Part shown: positions 1 to 8,431 of the stretch, piece by piece | How the letters are laid out: every line of letters begins with the position of its first letter | Position numbering within the stretch: the first letter of the stretch is position 1 | Assembly (NCBI GenBank): GCA_002708345.1 | Contig: PANG01000092.1 | Coordinates: forward strand, 5,090 to 13,520 | Origin: Planctomycetaceae bacterium | Lineage (GTDB): Bacteria; Planctomycetota; Planctomycetia; Pirellulales; Pirellulaceae | Direction: 5' to 3' | DNA: 8,431 nt | Program-made: the position numbers and the translations under genes | The notes under the pieces: generated by a model | Databases searched by the model: none | Told to the model about the DNA's origin: nothing | Seen by the model: the letters and a program-made list of their open reading frames with translations, nothing else

Positions 1-3000
1 GAAGTTCAGCCATGGAAAGCGCCTGGGAGGAGAGCATCGTGGAAGGCGTCACACCAGCCGCCTGCAAAGCGCGTTGGTCAAACCAGATTTCTGAAAGTCC
101 GCTGGCTGGGAATTGACCTGATCCTGCAATCAAATCACCCCAGTCAGCTGGCCGGCCAGAGCTAACAATTCCCTGCAGGAGTGAATCAAGCTGAAGAATC
201 GTTTTCTCGGACTGCTCGATCAAGGCCGGCAAAGATTTTTGGAGCGGGGACTGTTTATTCGCGAAGGCCACCCCAGAATCGAATTCTCTCCAGAATGGTC
301 CAAAAAGCCGCTTTCCCCAGGAAACAGGGCGTTGATGTCCGCTCAAACCAACACCTTGCTCGAGCGGATGATAACCGGCTGGCAGCAGGACTTCCCAACG
401 GCCATCCAGTACAGGGCAATTCGGCTCAGGAGCACGACTGGTAAGCGAGGAAATGGATCCAAGAGGGTCCCCCTGTTCACGGTAATGCAGCTGAACCGTG
501 CAAAATCGTTTTTTCTCCGGCAGCGTCACGATGACTGACGACCTGGCCGTCGTCGCGTTGTTCACCGTTACCTGTTCACCATCAACAAGAACCTGCAGAT
601 CTTCAACCGTTCCGGGAAGAAGAAAGCGGATACGTCGTCGTCCCACATTTTCCATGAAATAGCTCACCTGGTGATGGATCACACCGTTGGACGTGAAACG
701 CGACCTCATCATCATCTGCCAGGCCCAGGCAAGCGATTTCTGTTCGGAAGACGTGTCGTGTGAAAGAATCACATCACTGTCGAGAGAGGGCTGGTAGCGG
801 TACATCGCCCGGATCGGCAGATAAGTGTCGACCGGGACAACCTGGGGAGGAATCGGCTTGAGCCGCCTGGCCTCGATCTGGAGGTTTCCTTCATCGCGTG
901 CCAGGATCGCCAGGGAAGCCAGCTGCGATGTCGCTCCGGGGAGCATCAGCAGGCTCACTCGACTGGCCTCCTGAATCTCCGATTCACGCTGGAGTTCCAG
1001 GTCAAATCGTGTGCCCATCGATTCAGGCAGGACAAGTTCCCAGGTTTCTCCCCCAACCAGCCCTAGCCCGGACTGATCCTCGGCCGTCAACTTGCGGGCT
1101 GAAAGGCTCACTGCTGGATGATTGACCAATTGCCAGCGGAAGAGTTCATCTCGCGGTTCATGGAAATGAAACACCAGTCGGTTGAGCGACGAGGAACGGG
1201 GCGTACAGCCCACCAGGTATCGCTCCTTGAGAGTGTTCCCATCCACTTCCGCCTGCACGGCAATCTCGGCAGAGAAACGAGGCTGAATACGTCGGACAAA
1301 CAGGCCCAGCCTGTCAGCCACCGGACTTTGCTGGTAGAGAAGTGCCGCCGCCTGGGCATTCACTGCTGTCGCCTCCTCCTCGCTCAATTCCTCTCTCTCC
1401 AATCGCAACAGTCCGGCATCTCCTTCAAGCTGCAGCTGGAATGAAGGATCCACCCGAACCGAAACGACCTGGCGACCATGTTCTACATCCTCGATCCGTA
1501 GCGGCTGGAGAATATCACCAGCCAGACCAGTAGCATTCGTAGGCCGGTGGGCACGAACAACAAGCCGGGCAGGACGATCCAGGCTGATTGCACGTTTCAG
1601 CAGGACCTGTAACCGGCCACCGGAATCATCCTGGGCGGGAGTCACGATATCGTAGCTGTCAATTAACGACGCAGGCTCTGTCTCCACGCTATCAACAATC
1701 CAACCGGGCGCGATCGCTCCGGAAATATCAAACCGAGCACCAAAACTGGAAGAAAGACTGGCGATGAATCGTGCGGTAACTCGGGGGGGCAGAATCGCAA
1801 TCTCAAGGGATGTTTCCAGCTGAATCTCTTCATCTCTTCGCTCCACAGCAACCTCGATATCGGCAGCTGGCTGGTAAAGCTGGATCACACGGTTCTCACC
1901 TCCGGCATCCGCAGGAACAACACGTGTCACCTTTCCACCACTCACCTGTAACCGCTTCAGCATCACGCTCTCGGGAAGCATGAGCTGGATTTCTCCCTCG
2001 CGCCATACAGCATCCGGCAGTCGAACCATGGGCAAATGCCAGCGGCGCCCCGTCTGCATCTTGCCTGTGGCACGCAGCACGAGCAGGTGATTCTGTCCGA
2101 GAATTGCCTCGGGCAACAGCAACTCATGGTGGCCATCCTCTGCCGTACCACGAAATGACCACTTGACCGGATCATCTCCGATCCGCGCATCGATCAACTG
2201 GAGTTCTCCCATCTGGACAGCGAACTGTCGCAGCGGCTCGTTGTATACATCCAGGTTAAGTTGAATCGTGACATCCAGACCGGCATTGGATAAACCATAT
2301 ACGGTCGTCTGCCGCAGGAATGTCAGCTGGCTTCTCTGGCGAAATGGGTTCTCCGGGGCAATCGTCAAGCGGACATGATCATGCCCTCCCAACTCCAGGA
2401 CCCAGTTCAGTGTTTCTGGCTGGCTGGCCGCCGTCGCTTCAGGATTCTCTGCTTCAGGATTCTCTGCTGGAGGATTCTCAGGGGGCACGGCAGCCTGGCT
2501 AATAATTCCTCGATCAATCTGTGGCGTCACGTTCGCAGGAAGTTCCAGGAGCAACTGGCTGGCTGGAGAGGTAGGCAGCTGGATATCAAAATGGAGCTCA
2601 CCGAGCGAATCTCGCTGTCCTTTCAGCGACCATGGAAAATCGAGCCTGCCGGGACGAGGAACCAGGCAGACCTGGCTGCCGTTTGAATCCCTTCCGACGA
2701 TTGCAACCGGCGACTCCTGGTCCTCGCCAAAATGCCAGTGTGGTACTCCAATCGCCAGCCCCATCGGCTTCAATGGAAGGAAAAGAAGTTCCTCACTGTC
2801 TTCCGCTGTTGATTCCTCTTCTACCGGCTCCTCCGGTTCGGCCTCGGGAGGCTCCAGTCGTTCCACCTGGAGCCGTGCCTCTCCAGCAACCAGCTGGTCT
2901 CCCCGTAATCGTGCCCGGTAGCGTGCCCGGCTGATCCGCACGCGGTCTGCAGCCGGGTTTGCCCGGGCCGCGCGGTTAATCACCTGGATCATTGCCTCCA

Positions 3001-3208
3001 CCTCGTCCCGGCGAATCGGCATGAGACCCTTTATCAAGGACGGAAGATCCTTGCTGGGAACATAGACTCGCCGGTAGATGAGTGCTGCTCGAGTCTCCTG
3101 CTCCCCGCCATCGACTGCTGACCTGGGATCCGGGGACTGGCCAGGTAGCGCAAGGCAGGATCCGGAGAGGATCAATAGCAGCACGAGGAACCATTTGAAG
3201 CAGGTCAT
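1..3208 (-). CDS. Giant secreted protein, paralogue of its upstream neighbour (C-terminus outside window)
   Basis: The minus-strand frame is open without a stop from ATG at 3208-3206 to the left edge: 1069 codons plus one base, so the true end is missing. The family is not recognised. Residues 1-20 form a signal peptide (basic Lys5, hydrophobic core 7-14, possible cleavage after Ala20). Cys18 follows SGS, a poor lipobox, so lipoprotein export is unlikely but not excluded. An acidic stretch lies at about 119-140 and an ENP-rich repeat at 242-258; the rest looks like alternating beta-strand sequence. No membrane helix is visible before the edge. Landmarks shared with the upstream gene: GWIVDSV (502-508), RAHR (552-555), and a late Trp-rich block (WEVLLP near 938, then SW and FW near 963-973). 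By analogy C-terminal membrane segments are expected beyond the window. The start is supported by GGAG (3220-3217) eight bases upstream and by an ATGA overlap with the preceding stop, which suggests translational coupling. Coding call firm; function unknown, probably cell envelope. Confidence 0.92.
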   Translation of the reverse strand, partial: MTCFKWFLVLLLILSGSCLALPGQSPDPRSAVDGGEQETRAALIYRRVYVPSKDLPSLIKGLMPIRRDEVEAMIQVINRAARANPAADRVRISRARYRARLRGDQLVAGEARLQVERLEPPEAEPEEPVEEESTAEDSEELLFLPLKPMGLAIGVPHWHFGEDQESPVAIVGRDSNGSQVCLVPRPGRLDFPWSLKGQRDSLGELHFDIQLPTSPASQLLLELPANVTPQIDRGIISQAAVPPENPPAENPEAENPEATAASQPETLNWVLELGGHDHVRLTIAPENPFRQRSQLTFLRQTTVYGLSNAGLDVTIQLNLDVYNEPLRQFAVQMGELQLIDARIGDDPVKWSFRGTAEDGHHELLLPEAILGQNHLLVLRATGKMQTGRRWHLPMVRLPDAVWREGEIQLMLPESVMLKRLQVSGGKVTRVVPADAGGENRVIQLYQPAADIEVAVERRDEEIQLETSLEIAILPPRVTARFIASLSSSFGARFDISGAIAPGWIVDSVETEPASLIDSYDIVTPAQDDSGGRLQVLLKRAISLDRPARLVVRAHRPTNATGLAGDILQPLRIEDVEHGRQVVSVRVDPSFQLQLEGDAGLLRLEREELSEEEATAVNAQAAALLYQQSPVADRLGLFVRRIQPRFSAEIAVQAEVDGNTLKERYLVGCTPRSSSLNRLVFHFHEPRDELFRWQLVNHPAVSLSARKLTAEDQSGLGLVGGETWELVLPESMGTRFDLELQRESEIQEASRVSLLMLPGATSQLASLAILARDEGNLQIEARRLKPIPPQVVPVDTYLPIRAMYRYQPSLDSDVILSHDTSSEQKSLAWAWQMMMRSRFTSNGVIHHQVSYFMENVGRRRIRFLLPGTVEDLQVLVDGEQVTVNNATTARSSVIVTLPEKKRFCTVQLHYREQGDPLGSISSLTSRAPEPNCPVLDGRWEVLLPAGYHPLEQGVGLSGHQRPVSWGKRLFGPFWREFDSGVAFANKQSPLQKSLPALIEQSEKTILQLDSLLQGIVSSGRPADWGDLIAGSGQFPASGLSEIWFDQRALQAAGVTPSTMLSSQALSMAEL
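2436..2480 (-). repeat. Three tandem 15-bp units encoding an ENP-rich linker
   Basis: Two identical 15-bp units (2436-2450 and 2451-2465) and a diverged third (2466-2480) lie head to tail. The unit is a multiple of three, so each encodes five residues (AENPE-type) and the frame is kept. The protein segment, residues 242-258, is rich in Pro, Glu and Asn and probably forms a flexible linker between beta-rich parts of the secreted protein. Copy number could vary by slippage without breaking the frame. Confidence 0.85.
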
Positions 3209-3220
3209 GAGGGTGGCTCC
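3205..3220 (-). promoter_or_regulatory. ATGA start/stop overlap with ribosome binding site
   Basis: The TGA stop of the upstream giant gene (3207-3205) overlaps the ATG of the downstream one (3208-3206) in the four bases ATGA. GGAG at 3220-3217 lies eight bases before the ATG, inside the upstream coding region. This geometry is typical of termination-reinitiation coupling and argues that the two paralogues are made together from one mRNA. Confidence 0.8.
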
Positions 3221-6200
3221 GTGGCCGACATCTCCAGGGAAGCAGATACCGATGCGGTTGACCCCCGGGAGCCGGTCTCGAGGGAAACAACTCCAGGGTC
3301 ACTCGCTCCTTCAACCATCCCGGCACGACCAAGCAGGCGAGGTCCATCCCGCAATCGCCAGAAGAGGGTCCACTGCAGCAGTCTTGCAAGTCCCACCAAA
3401 CCACCCCCGAGAAGTGCCGCCTGGACAACCAGTAGGACAATCTCCGGCCAGCTCACGGCTGACGCCGCGAGAACAACCCCGACGACAAAGAGAAGCGAGG
3501 GATGCCGTACAGCGGGAATATAAATCAGCACCAGGCCAACGAGCAGGATCAAACCCGAGACGACCATGACCAGCGAGGAACGGCGAACCGTTGTCACCGT
3601 GAACATCCGCACCGGCCCAATTGAAGAAAAGAGATACTGGTTGGTCTGGACCGGGACCACCTGCTGGAAGGACGCACCAACCCAGCGTTCCAGATCCTGT
3701 TGGTCCATATACGCCGTTCTTCTCCAGCTCCAACCGTTCCATAACCATTCCTGTTCCGGTGTCATGTGGACAGGGACCTCAAGCAGGTGTTCATTTCCAG
3801 GTGTCACCAGCTGCCAGAAAATCCTGTCAGCACTGTTCGCTCCAATCACCCGCGGAGGCTCCACCGAAACAAAGCCCGTCAGGTGACTGCCAGGATTCGT
3901 CCAGTACCAGATCTCGATCACCATCTCGACGGCATCCCGGGAAGGGGGAAGCGGGATTTCCAGGGCACCCTGTTCGTTGATCACCACGTTCCTCGCTGAC
4001 AGTGGCTGCTTGTCGATGGCAATCCGCAGGTTGGAGGTATTCCCCTGGGCCAGCTCCGGGAGCTGGATCTGCAGGCGGCGATCCCGGGTGGAAACGCGCA
4101 AGGCAGCCCGTTCGTATCGAACTGTTTCAGTCAGATAAGTCTGCAACCATAACTGGCGCAGCTGCGTCGATGCCGAGGCTCCCAATCGATTGAGACTGAC
4201 AAGCAGGGGAAGCACATCTGTCGTCTCGGTCGCTGCAAATATCGGATCGACCGATTGTGAAATGCGTCTGCCGGGGCCATCGTCACGCTGCCAGGAGCCT
4301 TCGCGAGGGCTCGCCTGGACCATCGAATCCACAACCAGCTCCACCTGATTATCCTGGAAGATCGTCGTGGGAGTTCGATAGGGAATCACCAGCCCCACGG
4401 GAACGGTCACCGGTTGGTCCACAAGGAGCGTGGGCAAACGGATACTGTATCGAAGCAGAATGCGGAACTGACCAATTCGTTCCTTAAGCAAATCGACCCG
4501 GATCACCCGTCGCAAGTCACGATCCCCCGCCGACTTCTCCGGATCTTCCACCCAGGGAAGAGACTCCAGCTGCAACTCGCTGTCCTGTATTCCCGTGTTC
4601 ACAAGTGGAAACAGGAATACCTGGAGATCTCGACGAATCACCAACGAGGAGGGAACTTCCAGCGACAACTGCTTGATCGGCTCGTAAGCCACACCAAAAC
4701 GCAGTTCCTGCCGCAACTGGACCTGCTGTTCATCGACAGAGACTCGCGACAGGGAAGCGACCGTTGTATTGCGCTGCCGAATCTGCAGGCGAGCGACGAA
4801 TGACGGTGAAGCAGCATCCCCTCGATCCCGGTAAACAAGTGGAGCCTGCTGTCTCTGAGGGAGCAGGCCTGTTTCCGCTTCCGACAGCCTTGTCTCCTGT
4901 GTCAATCCAATGATCTGCTCAATTTGTGGCACCATTTCCACATTATCATCCGGGCTCACAATCAGCAGGCCGGGAAGCAACGTGAAAACCGTGGAACTGA
5001 GGAGCGAATCCACCCCGGGACGGGGGATGTCGATCACCTGTTCAACCACCAGGTCAGTCTGTGTGGCAAGATCTCGATGAGCTCGCAACTGGATTTCAAA
5101 CTGCTCCGGAAGACTCCCACTGGCCGCCTGTATTGGAATCGATACCAGGGTCCCGCTCTCAATCCGAATCGCGTCCGGATCAACCAGGTCTGCAGGCCTG
5201 GAAAGCACCTGGTCCACGGTCCAGCCATCCAGGTCTGACTCCAGAACAAAACCGCTTTTCCCACGCACCTGGCAGATCAAGTTGATATCGAGCTGGAGTT
5301 CATCATCCCGTACCTGGACCAGGTATTGTGGCTCAACACGAACACGTGTTTTTTCCGGCTCGATCCGGGCATCCAGCGAATAGGACTGGCTGAAGATCTC
5401 GAACCGTGCAATCCCCTCCTGCTGGAGCAGGGCTTCGGGAATTTCATCGATGCGGCGTACATCCCCATCCTGGTGCCAGGCAAGTGACCAGTTCCCCTCG
5501 ACCACGAAATCGATAAATCCGGACTGCTTCACGGCATTCAATACGTCCACACCACGAAACACGCTGGACTGCTCCTCACCAGCAACATTTCCTCCCGGGG
5601 ACTCTTCCTCGGGAAGGCCGGGCGCTGGCCGAAAAATTGCCTCCAGCGTGACCTGCAACTCGTTGGCCGGACGATTGGCCGTCACCTGGACCCTTTGTGG
5701 CTGTGGCAAAGGAACCCCTTCCATGGTTGGCAGGACCACCAGCCGGAAATCTCCCTGGGGAAGATCGATCACCTGCATGGAGGGTGGCAGCACCACTTCG
5801 AATGAAGATACCTCACCCCCTGAACCGGTTACCGTCACTTCGGCCTGCATGCTGATCTGCTGGGGACCCCTGATCGTGAAACGGGTGATCGTGTTGGCCA
5901 GCAGGCGAGTTACCGGCTTCATCGAGTCCCGGTCAATCGTGCCCCAGCTAAAATCAAGCTGCCCACCAGCAAAATCAAAACTAAAATCCGTCTCACCTGT
6001 CCCCGCCGGCCTGGCAACCACGCGCAAGTCGTCATTCAGCGATTCGGCACCTGCCAACCCTACTTTCAGACTCTTCATCCGTGAACGGGCAAGGGGACAA
6101 GTCAAACCAAAAAGGAACTGCCTGGCCGTCCTCTCCAGCGGTGAAATCAACTTCAAGCTGAGTGTGTGACGACTTCCTTTTTCGGCTCGAAACCAGCAAA

Positions 6201-6705
6201 TGTGCCCCGTCCCCCCTTTGTCAAGGGTGAGAAAAAAGTCACCCGGTCCCTCATGCCCTGCAGCTTCCTGGAGGACCGCCTGGCGAAATCCAATCGGCAC
6301 GGCAATCCACTCATCCTGCTGCTGTCGTTCGACAATGCGAATTTTCATTGTCACATCCAGCACGAGATGGTTCTCCCGGGCAACTCCCTGGTAAACCACC
6401 TCGTCAATGGCAAAGGCAGGGGGCAGTTTCCGTCCCAGCAGGTTGTGCCGTGCCTTGTAGATCTGGTCCCACTCTTCCAGCGAAAGATTGGCCACTGGAA
6501 CCAGGTTCCCCTCGGCATCACGAAGGTAGATTACCTCCGTCCGAGCCTCTTGCACTCCACCGCTTTCAGTTTCCTTTTCAGCGGCAGCAGCTGGGGTCGC
6601 CGGTTCCGGTTCCTGTGCCACCAGGCCCTTCCAGGATGTGGAAAAGGGAAACAGCAGCAGTGATGCGAGAATCACTTTCCAGCAATAAGTAGTGATAGAT
6701 TTCAT
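3205..6705 (-). CDS. Giant secreted protein with three C-terminal membrane helices
   Basis: A 1166-residue protein when started at ATG 6705-6703; family not recognised. Residues 1-30 form a signal peptide (Lys2, Lys10, core 11-21, probable cleavage after LVA before QE), followed by a Pro/Glu/Ala-rich linker (31-50). Residues of about 55-1035 are a long beta-rich body with few cysteines and no enzyme motif I can identify. Three membrane segments follow at about 1043-1066, 1070-1086 and 1088-1110, then a basic stretch (QWTLFWRLR) and a Ser-rich tail. The layout suggests a body outside the cytoplasmic membrane and a short cytoplasmic tail. An in-frame ATG at 6822 would add 39 residues before the signal peptide, and a promoter-like sequence lies between the two starts, so 6705 is preferred. 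No clear Shine-Dalgarno precedes it. The stop overlaps the start of the next gene (ATGA), and the two proteins are collinear paralogues: here GWTVDQV is at 494-500, RAHR at 541-544 and the Trp-rich block at 964-995. Confidence 0.93.
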   Translation of the reverse strand: MKSITTYCWKVILASLLLFPFSTSWKGLVAQEPEPATPAAAAEKETESGGVQEARTEVIYLRDAEGNLVPVANLSLEEWDQIYKARHNLLGRKLPPAFAIDEVVYQGVARENHLVLDVTMKIRIVERQQQDEWIAVPIGFRQAVLQEAAGHEGPGDFFLTLDKGGTGHICWFRAEKGSRHTLSLKLISPLERTARQFLFGLTCPLARSRMKSLKVGLAGAESLNDDLRVVARPAGTGETDFSFDFAGGQLDFSWGTIDRDSMKPVTRLLANTITRFTIRGPQQISMQAEVTVTGSGGEVSSFEVVLPPSMQVIDLPQGDFRLVVLPTMEGVPLPQPQRVQVTANRPANELQVTLEAIFRPAPGLPEEESPGGNVAGEEQSSVFRGVDVLNAVKQSGFIDFVVEGNWSLAWHQDGDVRRIDEIPEALLQQEGIARFEIFSQSYSLDARIEPEKTRVRVEPQYLVQVRDDELQLDINLICQVRGKSGFVLESDLDGWTVDQVLSRPADLVDPDAIRIESGTLVSIPIQAASGSLPEQFEIQLRAHRDLATQTDLVVEQVIDIPRPGVDSLLSSTVFTLLPGLLIVSPDDNVEMVPQIEQIIGLTQETRLSEAETGLLPQRQQAPLVYRDRGDAASPSFVARLQIRQRNTTVASLSRVSVDEQQVQLRQELRFGVAYEPIKQLSLEVPSSLVIRRDLQVFLFPLVNTGIQDSELQLESLPWVEDPEKSAGDRDLRRVIRVDLLKERIGQFRILLRYSIRLPTLLVDQPVTVPVGLVIPYRTPTTIFQDNQVELVVDSMVQASPREGSWQRDDGPGRRISQSVDPIFAATETTDVLPLLVSLNRLGASASTQLRQLWLQTYLTETVRYERAALRVSTRDRRLQIQLPELAQGNTSNLRIAIDKQPLSARNVVINEQGALEIPLPPSRDAVEMVIEIWYWTNPGSHLTGFVSVEPPRVIGANSADRIFWQLVTPGNEHLLEVPVHMTPEQEWLWNGWSWRRTAYMDQQDLERWVGASFQQVVPVQTNQYLFSSIGPVRMFTVTTVRRSSLVMVVSGLILLVGLVLIYIPAVRHPSLLFVVGVVLAASAVSWPEIVLLVVQAALLGGGLVGLARLLQWTLFWRLRDGPRLLGRAGMVEGASDPGVVSLETGSRGSTASVSASLEMSATEPPS

Positions 6706-6752
6706 GTTTGGTAATACCGTCGAGATGCCTGCCTTCTCTGTCTGGAAAATAC

Positions 6753-6765
6753 CCTGCCAGGCAGG
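6753..6765. repeat. 13-bp palindrome in the leader of the giant-protein gene
   Basis: CCTGCC-A-GGCAGG (plus strand) is a perfect inverted repeat around one base. It lies between the predicted promoter (6782-6809) and the start codon at 6705, about 10-22 bases after the predicted transcription start. It could be an operator half-site pair or a small hairpin, but a palindrome this short can arise by chance. Confidence 0.3.
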
Positions 6766-6781
6766 AGTTTCCACTCTTTCC

Positions 6782-6809
6782 ATTCTAGGCATGCCGGGAA
6801 TACGATCAA
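6782..6809 (-). promoter_or_regulatory. Possible sigma70-type promoter for the giant-protein pair
   Basis: On the minus strand TTGATC (6809-6804) and TAGAAT (6787-6782) are 16 bp apart, matching four of six and five of six consensus positions. Transcription would start near 6775, leaving a leader of about 70 bases before ATG 6705. That would exclude the upstream in-frame ATG at 6822 from the mRNA, in agreement with the signal-peptide position. This is a sequence match only. Confidence 0.4.
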
Positions 6810-6851
6810 AGAGAATCCCCATCCCTGATTACCTGAAAACCCTGTTCCAAA

Positions 6852-6889: not shown

Positions 6890-7699
6890 TCAAGACGCCC
6901 TGAAGAGCTCCAGGAGCGATGCATGAAGCGGCGCGGTTGCCGTGGCCATGAGCACTGGCGCGTCAATCTGGAAATCTCCACCATCAATCGCTGTCACCTG
7001 GCCACCTGCTTCCTGAACAAGCAAGATGCCGGCAGCGACATCCCACGGTTTCACACTGCTGGCCCAGTATGCATCCAGGCGTCCAGCAGCAAGGTACGAG
7101 AGATTCAAGGCCGCAGATCCAATCCGCCGCAGTGAACGGCAATGTTGAAGCGCCTTGGTAAATCGATTTACCTCATCTGTTTCGTCTTCGATATTTGCGG
7201 GAAAACTGACGGCTCCCAGTGCCTGCGAAAGTTCGCTTGTCGTGCTCACTGAAATCTCGTCCCCGTTAAGAGTGACTCCGTTTCCTGCCGACGCACAAAA
7301 CAACTCCTCCCGAACCGGATCCAGGACCAGCCCAAGCCGGGGAAGCCCATGTTGCCAGAGTGCGATGGAAACAGAGAAGAAAGGCAACTGGTGTACATAA
7401 TTGGTCGTCCCATCAAGCGGATCGACAATCCAGCAGTTTTCCTGGGAAGCAATCCAGGATGGCTCCCCGTCTGTCGGATGGCGATCGCCCTCCTCACCAA
7501 GAAATGCGTGACCTGGAAAAGCCGACTTGATCGTCTGCTCGATGACCTGCTGGGCCGCCAGATCCACATCCGTCACCAGGTCCTTGGGGCCCTTTTCCCG
7601 GGTGGTGAATTGACTTGATCGGTCAAGCAGGAGCTGGCCGGCCTGGTGAATTGCCTTGCTCGCAACTTCCTCGTATTGACTCACCTCATGCGACGACAA
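6890..7699 (-). CDS. Inositol-1-monophosphatase family protein (IMPase/SuhB type)
   Basis: A 269-residue, full-length member of the Mg2+-dependent, Li+-sensitive phosphatase superfamily. It is predicted to hydrolyse inositol monophosphate or a similar sugar or polyol phosphate in the cytoplasm. Visible motifs: KDLVTDVD (39-46), GEE (68-70, Glu69 as metal ligand), WIVDPLDGTTNYVH (90-103, with metal-binding Asp93 and Asp96 and Thr98) and WDVAAG (219-224, Asp220), followed by EAGG (230-233). The TTNYVH form after DPLDG favours IMPase/SuhB over CysQ-like bisphosphate nucleotidases or HisN-like histidinol phosphatases, but the substrate cannot be read from sequence alone. The start is TTG at 7699-7697, preceded by AAAGGA eight bases upstream; no in-frame ATG fits. 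The next gene downstream is the giant secreted protein, 184 bp away when started at 6705. Confidence 0.95.
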   Translation of the reverse strand: MSSHEVSQYEEVASKAIHQAGQLLLDRSSQFTTREKGPKDLVTDVDLAAQQVIEQTIKSAFPGHAFLGEEGDRHPTDGEPSWIASQENCWIVDPLDGTTNYVHQLPFFSVSIALWQHGLPRLGLVLDPVREELFCASAGNGVTLNGDEISVSTTSELSQALGAVSFPANIEDETDEVNRFTKALQHCRSLRRIGSAALNLSYLAAGRLDAYWASSVKPWDVAAGILLVQEAGGQVTAIDGGDFQIDAPVLMATATAPLHASLLELFRAS

Positions 7700-7713
7700 G
7701 ATACACGTCCTTT
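7697..7713 (-). promoter_or_regulatory. Ribosome binding site that decides the TTG start of the phosphatase
   Basis: AAAGGA (7713-7708) lies eight bases before TTG at 7699-7697, normal initiation spacing. The nearby ATG in CATGAGG is in another frame and meets a stop at once. A GTG at codon 6 is the only close in-frame alternative and has poorer spacing. Confidence 0.65.
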
Positions 7714-7875
7714 CTAGAAACGCCGGTTTTTATCTGCCGTTGCCGGTGCCACCCCATCAAGTGTCTCACGAGAAACACCCCTTGATGGCCAGCAGCACGT
7801 CACTTCGCCAAGAGCAACCTCGTTGCGATTATCGAACACCGAAAGACAACGACAAACAGTCGCTAATATGCTCAT
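7714..7875 (-). CDS. Possible 53-residue small protein upstream of the phosphatase
   Basis: ATG at 7875-7873 opens a 53-codon frame that ends in TAG (7716-7714), 14 bases before the phosphatase start. It is listed because AGGGAG sits seven bases before the ATG, a better ribosome binding site than that of the giant gene. The product starts with a mildly hydrophobic segment (MSILATVCRCLSVF) and has a CxC and a CC pair; the C-terminal half is polar and basic. It matches no family I know. The frame stays open to 7920 upstream, where another ATG has no clear ribosome binding site. A promoter-like element and an inverted repeat lie inside it, which fits untranslated leader sequence just as well. 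The coding call is weak. Confidence 0.25.
   Translation of the reverse strand: MSILATVCRCLSVFDNRNEVALGEVTCCWPSRGVSRETLDGVAPATADKNRRF
7754..7788. repeat. Inverted repeat in the phosphatase leader
   Basis: CCATCAAG (7754-7761) and CTTGATGG (7781-7788) are perfect 8-bp arms around a 19-base spacer, inside which TGT (7762-7764) can pair with ACA (7775-7777). On the minus strand it lies 55-89 bases before the phosphatase start. No T-run follows on either strand, so it is not a terminator. It could be an operator or a leader RNA hairpin. Confidence 0.45.
7828..7855 (-). promoter_or_regulatory. Possible promoter for the phosphatase
   Basis: On the minus strand TTGTCG (7855-7850) and GATAAT (7833-7828) are separated by 16 bp. 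The -10 matches five of six consensus positions, but the -35 only about three. The start would be near 7821, giving a 120-base leader that contains the inverted repeat. If used, it would start inside the 53-codon ORF and argue against that ORF being expressed. Confidence 0.3.
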
Positions 7876-7935
7876 AATCCGTCTCCCTGGCAGGCCAAAA
7901 CAGCAGTCCTGCAAGCACATTTCGATACAAAAGTC

Positions 7936-7963
7936 TGGACACTTCGACCATTCCTGCTATTAT
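7936..7963 (+). promoter_or_regulatory. Sigma70-type promoter with extended -10 for the small RNA
   Basis: TGGACA (7936-7941) and TATTAT (7958-7963) lie 16 bp apart. The -10 is preceded by TGC, giving the extended form TGCTATTAT (7955-7963). Five of six bases match consensus in each hexamer. Transcription would start near 7970, immediately before the first base of the long stem of the predicted RNA. There is no coding ORF of useful length downstream on this strand. Confidence 0.55.
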
Positions 7964-7969
7964 CATAAG

Positions 7970-8133
7970 TGATGGGTTTGTACGTTTTTCTTTGATAGGA
8001 ACTGCGATTTGTGCCCCAACTGACGCAATCTGCGTTTGGTTGAAATCGGCAGTCAACAACGTACGACACCTATCGGCCTCTTCTCTGTTCCGGCCCCGCC
8101 GTAACACTTTTTGTGTGCGGCGGGGTTTTTTTT
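7970..8133 (+). ncRNA. Candidate structured small RNA of unknown family, about 165 nt
   Basis: Three independent signals agree: a promoter just upstream, a strong intrinsic terminator at the end, and a fold that spans the space between. Outer stem: 7971-7977 pairs with 8068-8074 (GATGGGT with ACCTATC, one G-U). After a 2/3-base internal loop, 7980-7986 pairs with 8058-8064 (GTACGTT with AACGTAC). An asymmetric bubble (7987-8000 against 8054-8057) follows, then a middle stem of 8001-8010 with 8043-8053 (one bulged G), and an apical hairpin of CCAA (8016-8019) with TTGG (8036-8039) and ACGCA (8023-8027) with TGCGT (8031-8035). A pyrimidine-rich linker leads to the terminator. The interrupted rod recalls 6S RNA in outline, but the bubble is lopsided and the RNA has its own terminator; I see no SRP, tmRNA or RNase P hallmarks. 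No plus-strand gene follows, so it is not an evident riboswitch leader. Pairings were found by eye; no folding energy was computed. Confidence 0.6.
8094..8133 (+). terminator. Strong intrinsic terminator of the small RNA
   Basis: CCCCGCCG (8094-8101) pairs perfectly with CGGCGGGG (8118-8125). ACAC (8104-8107) pairs with GTGT (8113-8116) around a TTTTT loop, and eight T follow at 8126-8133. On the minus strand no T-run follows the stem, so it is oriented for the plus strand. As no plus-strand protein gene precedes it, it is the best single sign that an RNA gene lies here. It sits 12 bases beyond the stop of the convergent minus-strand gene. Confidence 0.85.
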
Positions 8134-8145
8134 CTACAGGGAACC

Positions 8146-8431
8146 CTAGGTGCTAAGTCGGCAGGGTGCATTGCGAAATTGCAGAAAAAGTGCTTCAGCC
8201 TGCTGCTGATCGCCATCTCGTGGGATGATCCAACCCTGGAGGCGGGATCGGCGAATCACACCCTTCTCTAACTGGTCAAGCAAGAGCTGGAATGTCCAGC
8301 TTACCTCTCCTGGCTGTTCGTTGCCGGCAAGCAGTTCTCCCGCACCAAAATCTGCCGGGTACAGTATCTCCAGGTAGCTGAAGTCACAATCCTCCTGGCG
8401 GCAGAGAATACAGCCCGGCGTTTCAAGCAAA
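8146..8431 (-). CDS. C-terminal fragment of an unrecognised protein
   Basis: The minus-strand frame is open from the right edge to TAG at 8148-8146, giving 94 full codons plus one base of another. The first full codon (8430-8428) is TTG, read here as an internal Leu; a start at this codon cannot be excluded because its upstream region is outside the window. Near the edge is a Cys cluster, C-I-L-C followed by four residues and another Cys (CILCRQEDC), which could be a metal-binding or structural motif. The rest is acidic to mixed and ends in a Leu/Ile-rich and basic segment (LEKGVIRRSRLQGW) and a further Cys near the C-terminus. No family is recognised. Its end faces the end of the small RNA gene (convergent). 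Confidence 0.7.
   Translation of the reverse strand, partial: LLETPGCILCRQEDCDFSYLEILYPADFGAGELLAGNEQPGEVSWTFQLLLDQLEKGVIRRSRLQGWIIPRDGDQQQAEALFLQFRNAPCRLST

Follow-up and report, generated by a model that had tools for sequence, protein, structure and literature searches.

A free-standing small RNA gene, with a predicted transcript designated RNA A, was identified by its sequence, fold and conservation at positions 7936–8133 of the window, the 8,431-nt stretch of DNA that was analysed. The RNA A family was defined by its core and terminator, not by the long rod at its 5′ end. The 24-nt core was nearly invariant and was complementary to a second locus, RNA B, which was found in genomes of A-bearing relatives behind a sigma54-type promoter. 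A and B suggest a two-RNA control circuit in bacteria with few known small RNAs.

The promoter of RNA A (TGGACA-N16-TATTAT, 7936–7963, plus strand) matched the consensus at 10 of 12 positions and had the TG of an extended −10, as an earlier note on this DNA had described. A transcript of about 164 nt (7970–8133, plus strand) was predicted, with its start inferred from the promoter and its extent backed by the fold and the family. It comprised a 5′ folded domain, the rod (7970–8074), the hyperconserved core GGCCTCTTCTCTGTTCCGGCCCCG (8075–8098) and an intrinsic terminator (8094–8133) of an 8-pair stem and an apical stem, followed by eight T (8126–8133). The GC-rich hairpin and T run were thus where the note had placed them; the terminator was unlisted by a simple terminator scanner, yet was shown by both fold and alignment. 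Both flanking genes lay on the minus strand, which agreed with the note's view of a dedicated small RNA of about 165 nt and not a leader. Having its own promoter and intrinsic terminator and no ORF, RNA A had the make-up of a trans-acting, terminator-type small RNA.

The predicted RNA (7970–8133) folded with a minimum free energy of −64 kcal/mol (z −5.05), and none of 200 shuffles was as low. When folded separately, the rod gave z −3.5 and the terminator part z −6.3. A blind scan of the window in 110-nt steps gave z −1.8 to −2.6 for the plus-strand steps over the rod and −3.6 for coding steps elsewhere; thus the rod fold alone was not outstanding, and the terminator and the conservation carried the case. 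The Rfam covariance search that the earlier note had proposed returned neither 6S RNA nor any other family, in support of its option of a new family: no family matched the whole window at the gathering score or positions 7700–8300 up to E 10, and none matched 15 neighbour loci at the gathering score. Plasmid and phage records were also searched, with no match.

When 241 genomes of one family were searched at the nucleotide level, matches concentrated at window positions 8072–8132 (192 genomes at E ≤ 1, a tally that includes chance matches). An alignment of 60 loci was built from the window and the stronger matches, with 59 genomes contributing a single locus each; the second locus of genome G476 (L156) was left out because it is a B locus. 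A covariance model of the core and terminator was used to search 396 genomes of one order, presumably Pirellulales, and RNA A was found in 169 of them at E < 1e-9 and in 204 at E ≤ 0.01. Among the cultured carriers is Botrimarina colliarenosi, with A at L033:3554–3616 on the minus strand. Four of 324 genomes drawn from across the phylum matched at E ≤ 1e-5, and all four were already in the order sample. The promoter was kept as well. Among 62 loci that fitted the promoter pattern, the spacer was 16 nt in all 62 (14–18 allowed) and the −35 was TGGACA in 54; of 79 loci in all, 16 departed from the pattern, L132 had almost no 5′ domain, and one locus (G151) was counted twice.

Of the 23 core columns at positions 2–24, 22 held a single letter in all 60 loci and the remaining one in 59 of 60; because the core itself served to find the loci, part of this invariance is due to ascertainment. 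A coding core was rejected on the same alignment; wobble positions were equally invariant, so that the core looked non-coding. Its pyrimidine stretch was predicted to be unpaired with a probability of 0.90 in the window and a mean of 0.65 over 53 loci (above 0.7 in 25 of the 53). By sequence and fold, the core was an exposed, conserved seed complementary to the RNA of another locus. The terminator stem covaried, with 75 alignment cells changed on both sides of a pair where shuffles gave 25.4; such changes were spread over five pairs, however, a number that shuffles also gave.

The neighbourhood of RNA A was conserved too. A divergent gene of the inositol monophosphatase family (6890–7699, minus strand; PF00459, E 2e-65) lay on one side, and its 15 best relatives shared 43–48% identity and came mostly from Pirellulaceae or Planctomycetes assemblies, so that the window was assigned to a planctomycete close to the Pirellulaceae. 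On the other side the 3′ end of an unnamed gene (8146–8430, minus strand; no Pfam match) converged on RNA A and ran off the window. A check independent of the core was made by fetching 80 loci with the phosphatase protein alone: 12 carried RNA A, which always ran opposite to the phosphatase gene and lay some 100–440 nt before that gene's matched start, while the upstream region of 25 others, when inspected, gave no sign of A. One of the 12 copies, in a Mariniblastus assembly (L021:3728–3786, minus strand; 38 bits), sat at the conserved place with a diverged core, in which 8 of 25 letters differed, six of them by C to U. A neighbouring 1205-aa protein had no Pfam match and was matched in 350 of the 396 genomes; its homologue and RNA A were on one contig in 22 of 35 genomes for which both places were entered, and within 3 kb in 20. 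Two very large minus-strand reading frames, one of them encoding the 1205-aa protein, occupied window positions 3205–6822 and 2–3208, and an inverted repeat, CCATCAAG...CTTGATGG, was observed at 7754–7788, in the region upstream of the phosphatase gene.

The rod, which the earlier note had described, was present in the window and kept in near relatives, but it was variable between clades and not general to the family as judged from sequence and fold. At least five closing pairs were found in 25 of 62 A loci, and z for the 5′ domain was below −2 in 28 of 62; several copies had a short or absent 5′ domain. Six of the seven genomes nearest by the 1205-aa protein had a closing stem of 10–11 pairs, and the seventh (G194) had none and a 5′ domain of 35 nt. 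Stems of 10–15 closing pairs occurred in 11 loci, namely the window, six near relatives and four loci similar to these in sequence. Compensatory change in the closing stem, which the note had suggested looking for, was examined among seven aligned relatives: double-sided changes were seen at five pairs, in a single sequence apiece, where shuffles gave 0.8 (0 of 500 as high). The structure for this test was taken from one of the seven, and the window was excluded as it aligned too poorly to count.

Further matches to the core in A-bearing genomes were mostly not copies of A. Among 20 second matches, two (L209 and L217) proved to be additional copies of A, 13 went forward as candidates together with one from G476, one (L198) was refetched, and L212 and L214–L216 were checked for the promoter pattern alone. 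A set of 23 B loci was obtained, consisting of all 14 first candidates and 9 of 20 further candidates, the promoter being a condition of selection for the nine; all came from genomes of A-bearing relatives other than the window's own genome. Each had a sigma54-type promoter (GG-N10-GC) 21–76 nt upstream of a complement of the core (anti-core), on the strand opposite to the core. When the best anti-core of 38 second loci was chosen without using the promoter, the sigma54-type pattern preceded it in 26 and was absent in 12; at positions drawn at random within these loci the pattern was found in 212 of 3800 cases. One anti-core match with a single mismatch (L294:2418, minus strand) lay within short repeats and had no sigma54 pattern.

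The B loci carried repeated parts of the anti-core. The motif GGGYCGG, with overlapping forms of GGGGCCGG counted once, occurred 1.91 times per B against 0.06 in dinucleotide shuffles. Beyond the first site, GGGYCGG was found 0.96 times per B (0.05 in shuffles) and in 21 of the 23 loci, and GAGGC 1.87 times (0.45 in shuffles) and in 18. A terminator-like site followed the anti-core in 17 of 23 loci, compared with 19 of 230 shuffles. At the 17 B loci where the next gene was scanned, it always shared the orientation of B, and at 15 it was of the PSCyt2 (DUF1549)-PSD1 (DUF1553) type; a class II fructose-bisphosphate aldolase (L244:2894–3895) and a TPR protein (L295:345–1553) stood there instead at the other two. 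The anti-core lay 408–742 nt before the gene start (10 loci), and the gap from terminator to gene was judged by eye to be roughly 150–400 nt. The gene after PSCyt2-PSD1 was DUF1501 at L241, the one locus scanned for it, and others were similar by their first residues. No Rfam family matched 14 B loci at the gathering score. Just 3′ of B at L238, L244 and L248, inverted repeats whose halves resemble TTGCAACA and GATACA were seen by eye; exact halves of this type were present in a minority of 10 loci, and the repeats are possibly a binding site of a sigma54 activator.

The best duplexes of A and B ranged from −46 to −63 kcal/mol. In 16 of 16 genomes they were below every one of 100 shuffles, which is expected of loci that had been chosen for the site. 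Weak duplexes were no more numerous per B than in shuffles, beside the further GGGYCGG sites in 21 of 23 loci. The centre of the B anti-core was predicted to be unpaired with a probability of 0.72, compared with 0.37 for the whole of B, and was the more exposed in 22 of 23 loci. In the 22 columns of the B site taken together, pairing was kept as G.U by 17 changes and broken by 9 transitions, and a further 26 changes were transversions. Over the inner 17 columns 16 of 24 changes kept pairing as G.U, although 12 of the 16 fell at one column left free by the search pattern, and six of these in one close clade.

Full-length B was found in at least 72 of the 396 genomes among the matches listed (to near E 1e-5), and 68 of the 72 had A, compared with 169 of 396 overall (Fisher P ~1e-24, a statistic that ignores kinship). 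The exceptions were G097, G207 (with a weak A), G234 and G298. Conversely, 101 of the 169 A genomes had no full-length B among the matches listed to that same limit. As to whether B might be A read backwards, none of 30 B loci scored above 27.6 bits with the A model, and most others lay on a different contig or at a different place from A (G083, G118, G140 and G207 had no listed place for A in this comparison).

Since the core was the means of finding the A loci as well as the B loci, their sites are ascertained in part, and A is so invariant that covariation between A and B is nearly absent. Compensation was looked for in 25 genomes, mostly with a weak or diverged A. In one of them, G408, RNA A carries an A where nearly all others have G and the weak B match has U, so that a Watson-Crick pair replaces G.U; this is suggestive of compensation, a lead and not a proof. 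Among the diverged A copies of the same set, G460, G439 and G021 gave no clean compensation in B, and there was no series. A search of 40 genomes for a conserved mRNA target at up to one mismatch, in which hits beyond A and B were examined in part, recognised none; the search pattern written backwards, as a control, gave one match in the 40 genomes. Hfq was over the cut-off in none of 30 A genomes (one weak match at 18.3 bits), with a control positive in 5 of 14 genomes, and RNA A therefore did not have the setting of an Hfq-dependent small RNA.

Taken together, RNA A is probably a small RNA that acts in trans and independently of Hfq by pairing through its core, and B its sigma54-driven partner, perhaps a sponge. 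A would be made from its vegetative-type promoter, and the exposed 24-nt core, between the 5′ domain and the terminator, would pair with the complementary site of B. B would be made elsewhere in the genome from its sigma54 promoter, with one near-perfect site and usually at least one further half-site, and would often end at its own terminator, with a PSCyt2-PSD1 gene following in most scanned loci. The likeliest logic is that, once sigma54 is activated, B would soak up A and release whatever A represses; with B as a sponge, the near-invariance of A would reflect many partners. A fuller version is offered more tentatively, as a possibility less likely than not: that the two RNAs make up a switch without Hfq, kept over much of one Planctomycetes order, in which a vegetative, near-invariant A with many targets is titrated by a sigma54-induced multi-site sponge located before, and maybe setting, the PSCyt2-PSD1/DUF1501 operon.

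The main target of A could instead be B itself, as an attenuated leader of the PSCyt2-PSD1 operon, with pairing altering the folding and termination of B and so setting expression. We regard this as rather unlikely but worth serious weight. The constant direction of the next gene, its recurrent identity as PSCyt2-PSD1, the 408–742 nt from anti-core to gene start and the terminator-like site after the anti-core are what a leader would have. Against it, further A half-sites in 21 of 23 B loci were more than one switch needs, the gap between terminator and gene was roughly 150–400 nt by eye, and the aldolase and TPR genes stood in place of PSCyt2-PSD1 at two loci. Given the recurrence of half-sites and a terminator ahead of the operon, the evidence leans to a sponge over a leader, without settling the matter.

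It is unlikely, though conceivable, that the core is the binding site of a conserved protein, on RNA or DNA, and that the complementarity is the same site on the other strand. Invariance over 22 nt nearly without covariation is what protein contacts give, and the opposite orientations at A and B would fit; however, the half-sites of B recurred at a distance from one another in the orientation complementary to A, the inner changes of B mostly kept G.U pairing, and both sites were predicted to be exposed in RNA. Still less probable is a role of B as a CsrB-like decoy that binds CsrA, with A as its antisense. CsrA was present in 30 of 30 genomes with 3–14 matches each, but GGA showed no enrichment in B (6.78, with 8.06 in dinucleotide shuffles and 6.78 in simple ones) and ANGGA was rarer (1.35 against 2.16 in shuffles); on these counts a CsrB-like nature of B was rejected.

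The earlier note had also left a divergent 6S RNA open, from the loose likeness of the rod with its asymmetric bubble. This identity was rejected for A and is now highly improbable. RF00013 gave no match in the window, either at the gathering score or when the limit was relaxed to E 10, and full-length matches (model positions 1–187) to other loci were found in 13 of 30 A genomes at 27.7–45.5 bits, none above the cut-off of 46.4. The other 17 genomes, without a full-length 6S match, would leave room for A in that role; two of them had short weak matches and 15 none. The closing stem, central bubble and terminal stem of 6S RNA were not kept across relatives of A, some copies of which were nearly without a 5′ domain. 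RNA A thus resembles 6S RNA in the long rod with an internal bubble of its window copy, and differs in its linear conserved core, the missing model match and the separate 6S-like loci. When five of the 13 such loci were scanned against all of Rfam, 6S was the sole family up to E 0.1. The loci L187–L196 (e.g. L188:1501–1716, minus strand) hold candidate 6S RNAs of this order, full-length and sub-threshold, the best at 45.5 of 46.4 bits; 6S RNA has been reported absent in Pirellula and Rhodopirellula, in a statement cited in PMC5673643. That there is no gene but a chance fold near a terminator, for which the weak showing of the rod in the blind scan might speak, is contradicted by the conservation and can be practically dismissed, given the z of −5.05 for the whole RNA, the invariant core, the occurrence in 169 of 396 genomes, the promoter, the covarying terminator and the kept place beside the phosphatase gene.

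A review table (PMC9029176) counts 8 distinct small RNAs in the whole PVC group and 345 in Proteobacteria. The Rhodopirellula-1 motif (Weinberg 2010, PMC2864571) has been described as a candidate RNA of both Planctomycetes and Proteobacteria. No description of RNA A or of a trans-acting planctomycete small RNA like it was found in the literature searched, which included few subscription papers. The near-invariant 24-nt core and its complementary sigma54 partner offer a testable entry to RNA regulation where Hfq was undetected, and the pair may serve as a handle on the PSCyt2, PSD1 and DUF1501 genes, whose function is unknown according to Pfam.

RyhB, RsaE/RoxS and the LhrC class are trans-acting small RNAs with an intrinsic terminator and an exposed conserved seed. 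RNA A resembles them in its own promoter, its exposed pyrimidine-rich seed and its 3′-end terminator; unlike theirs, its seed abuts and runs into the terminator, 22–24 nt of it are near-invariant in 60 loci, Hfq was not detected and Rfam gave no match. Sponges and decoys of small RNAs include SroC for GcvB, the chbBC trap for ChiX and 3′ETS-leuZ. B shares with these its complementarity to a small RNA and its separate control, whereas it appears to be free-standing and sigma54-driven, with one full site and usually further half-sites, and mostly precedes a PSCyt2-PSD1 gene. CsrB and RsmZ are multi-site decoy RNAs, to which B is similar in its repeated short motifs and regulated promoter; its repeats, in contrast, match the complement of RNA A and not the GGA recognised by CsrA.
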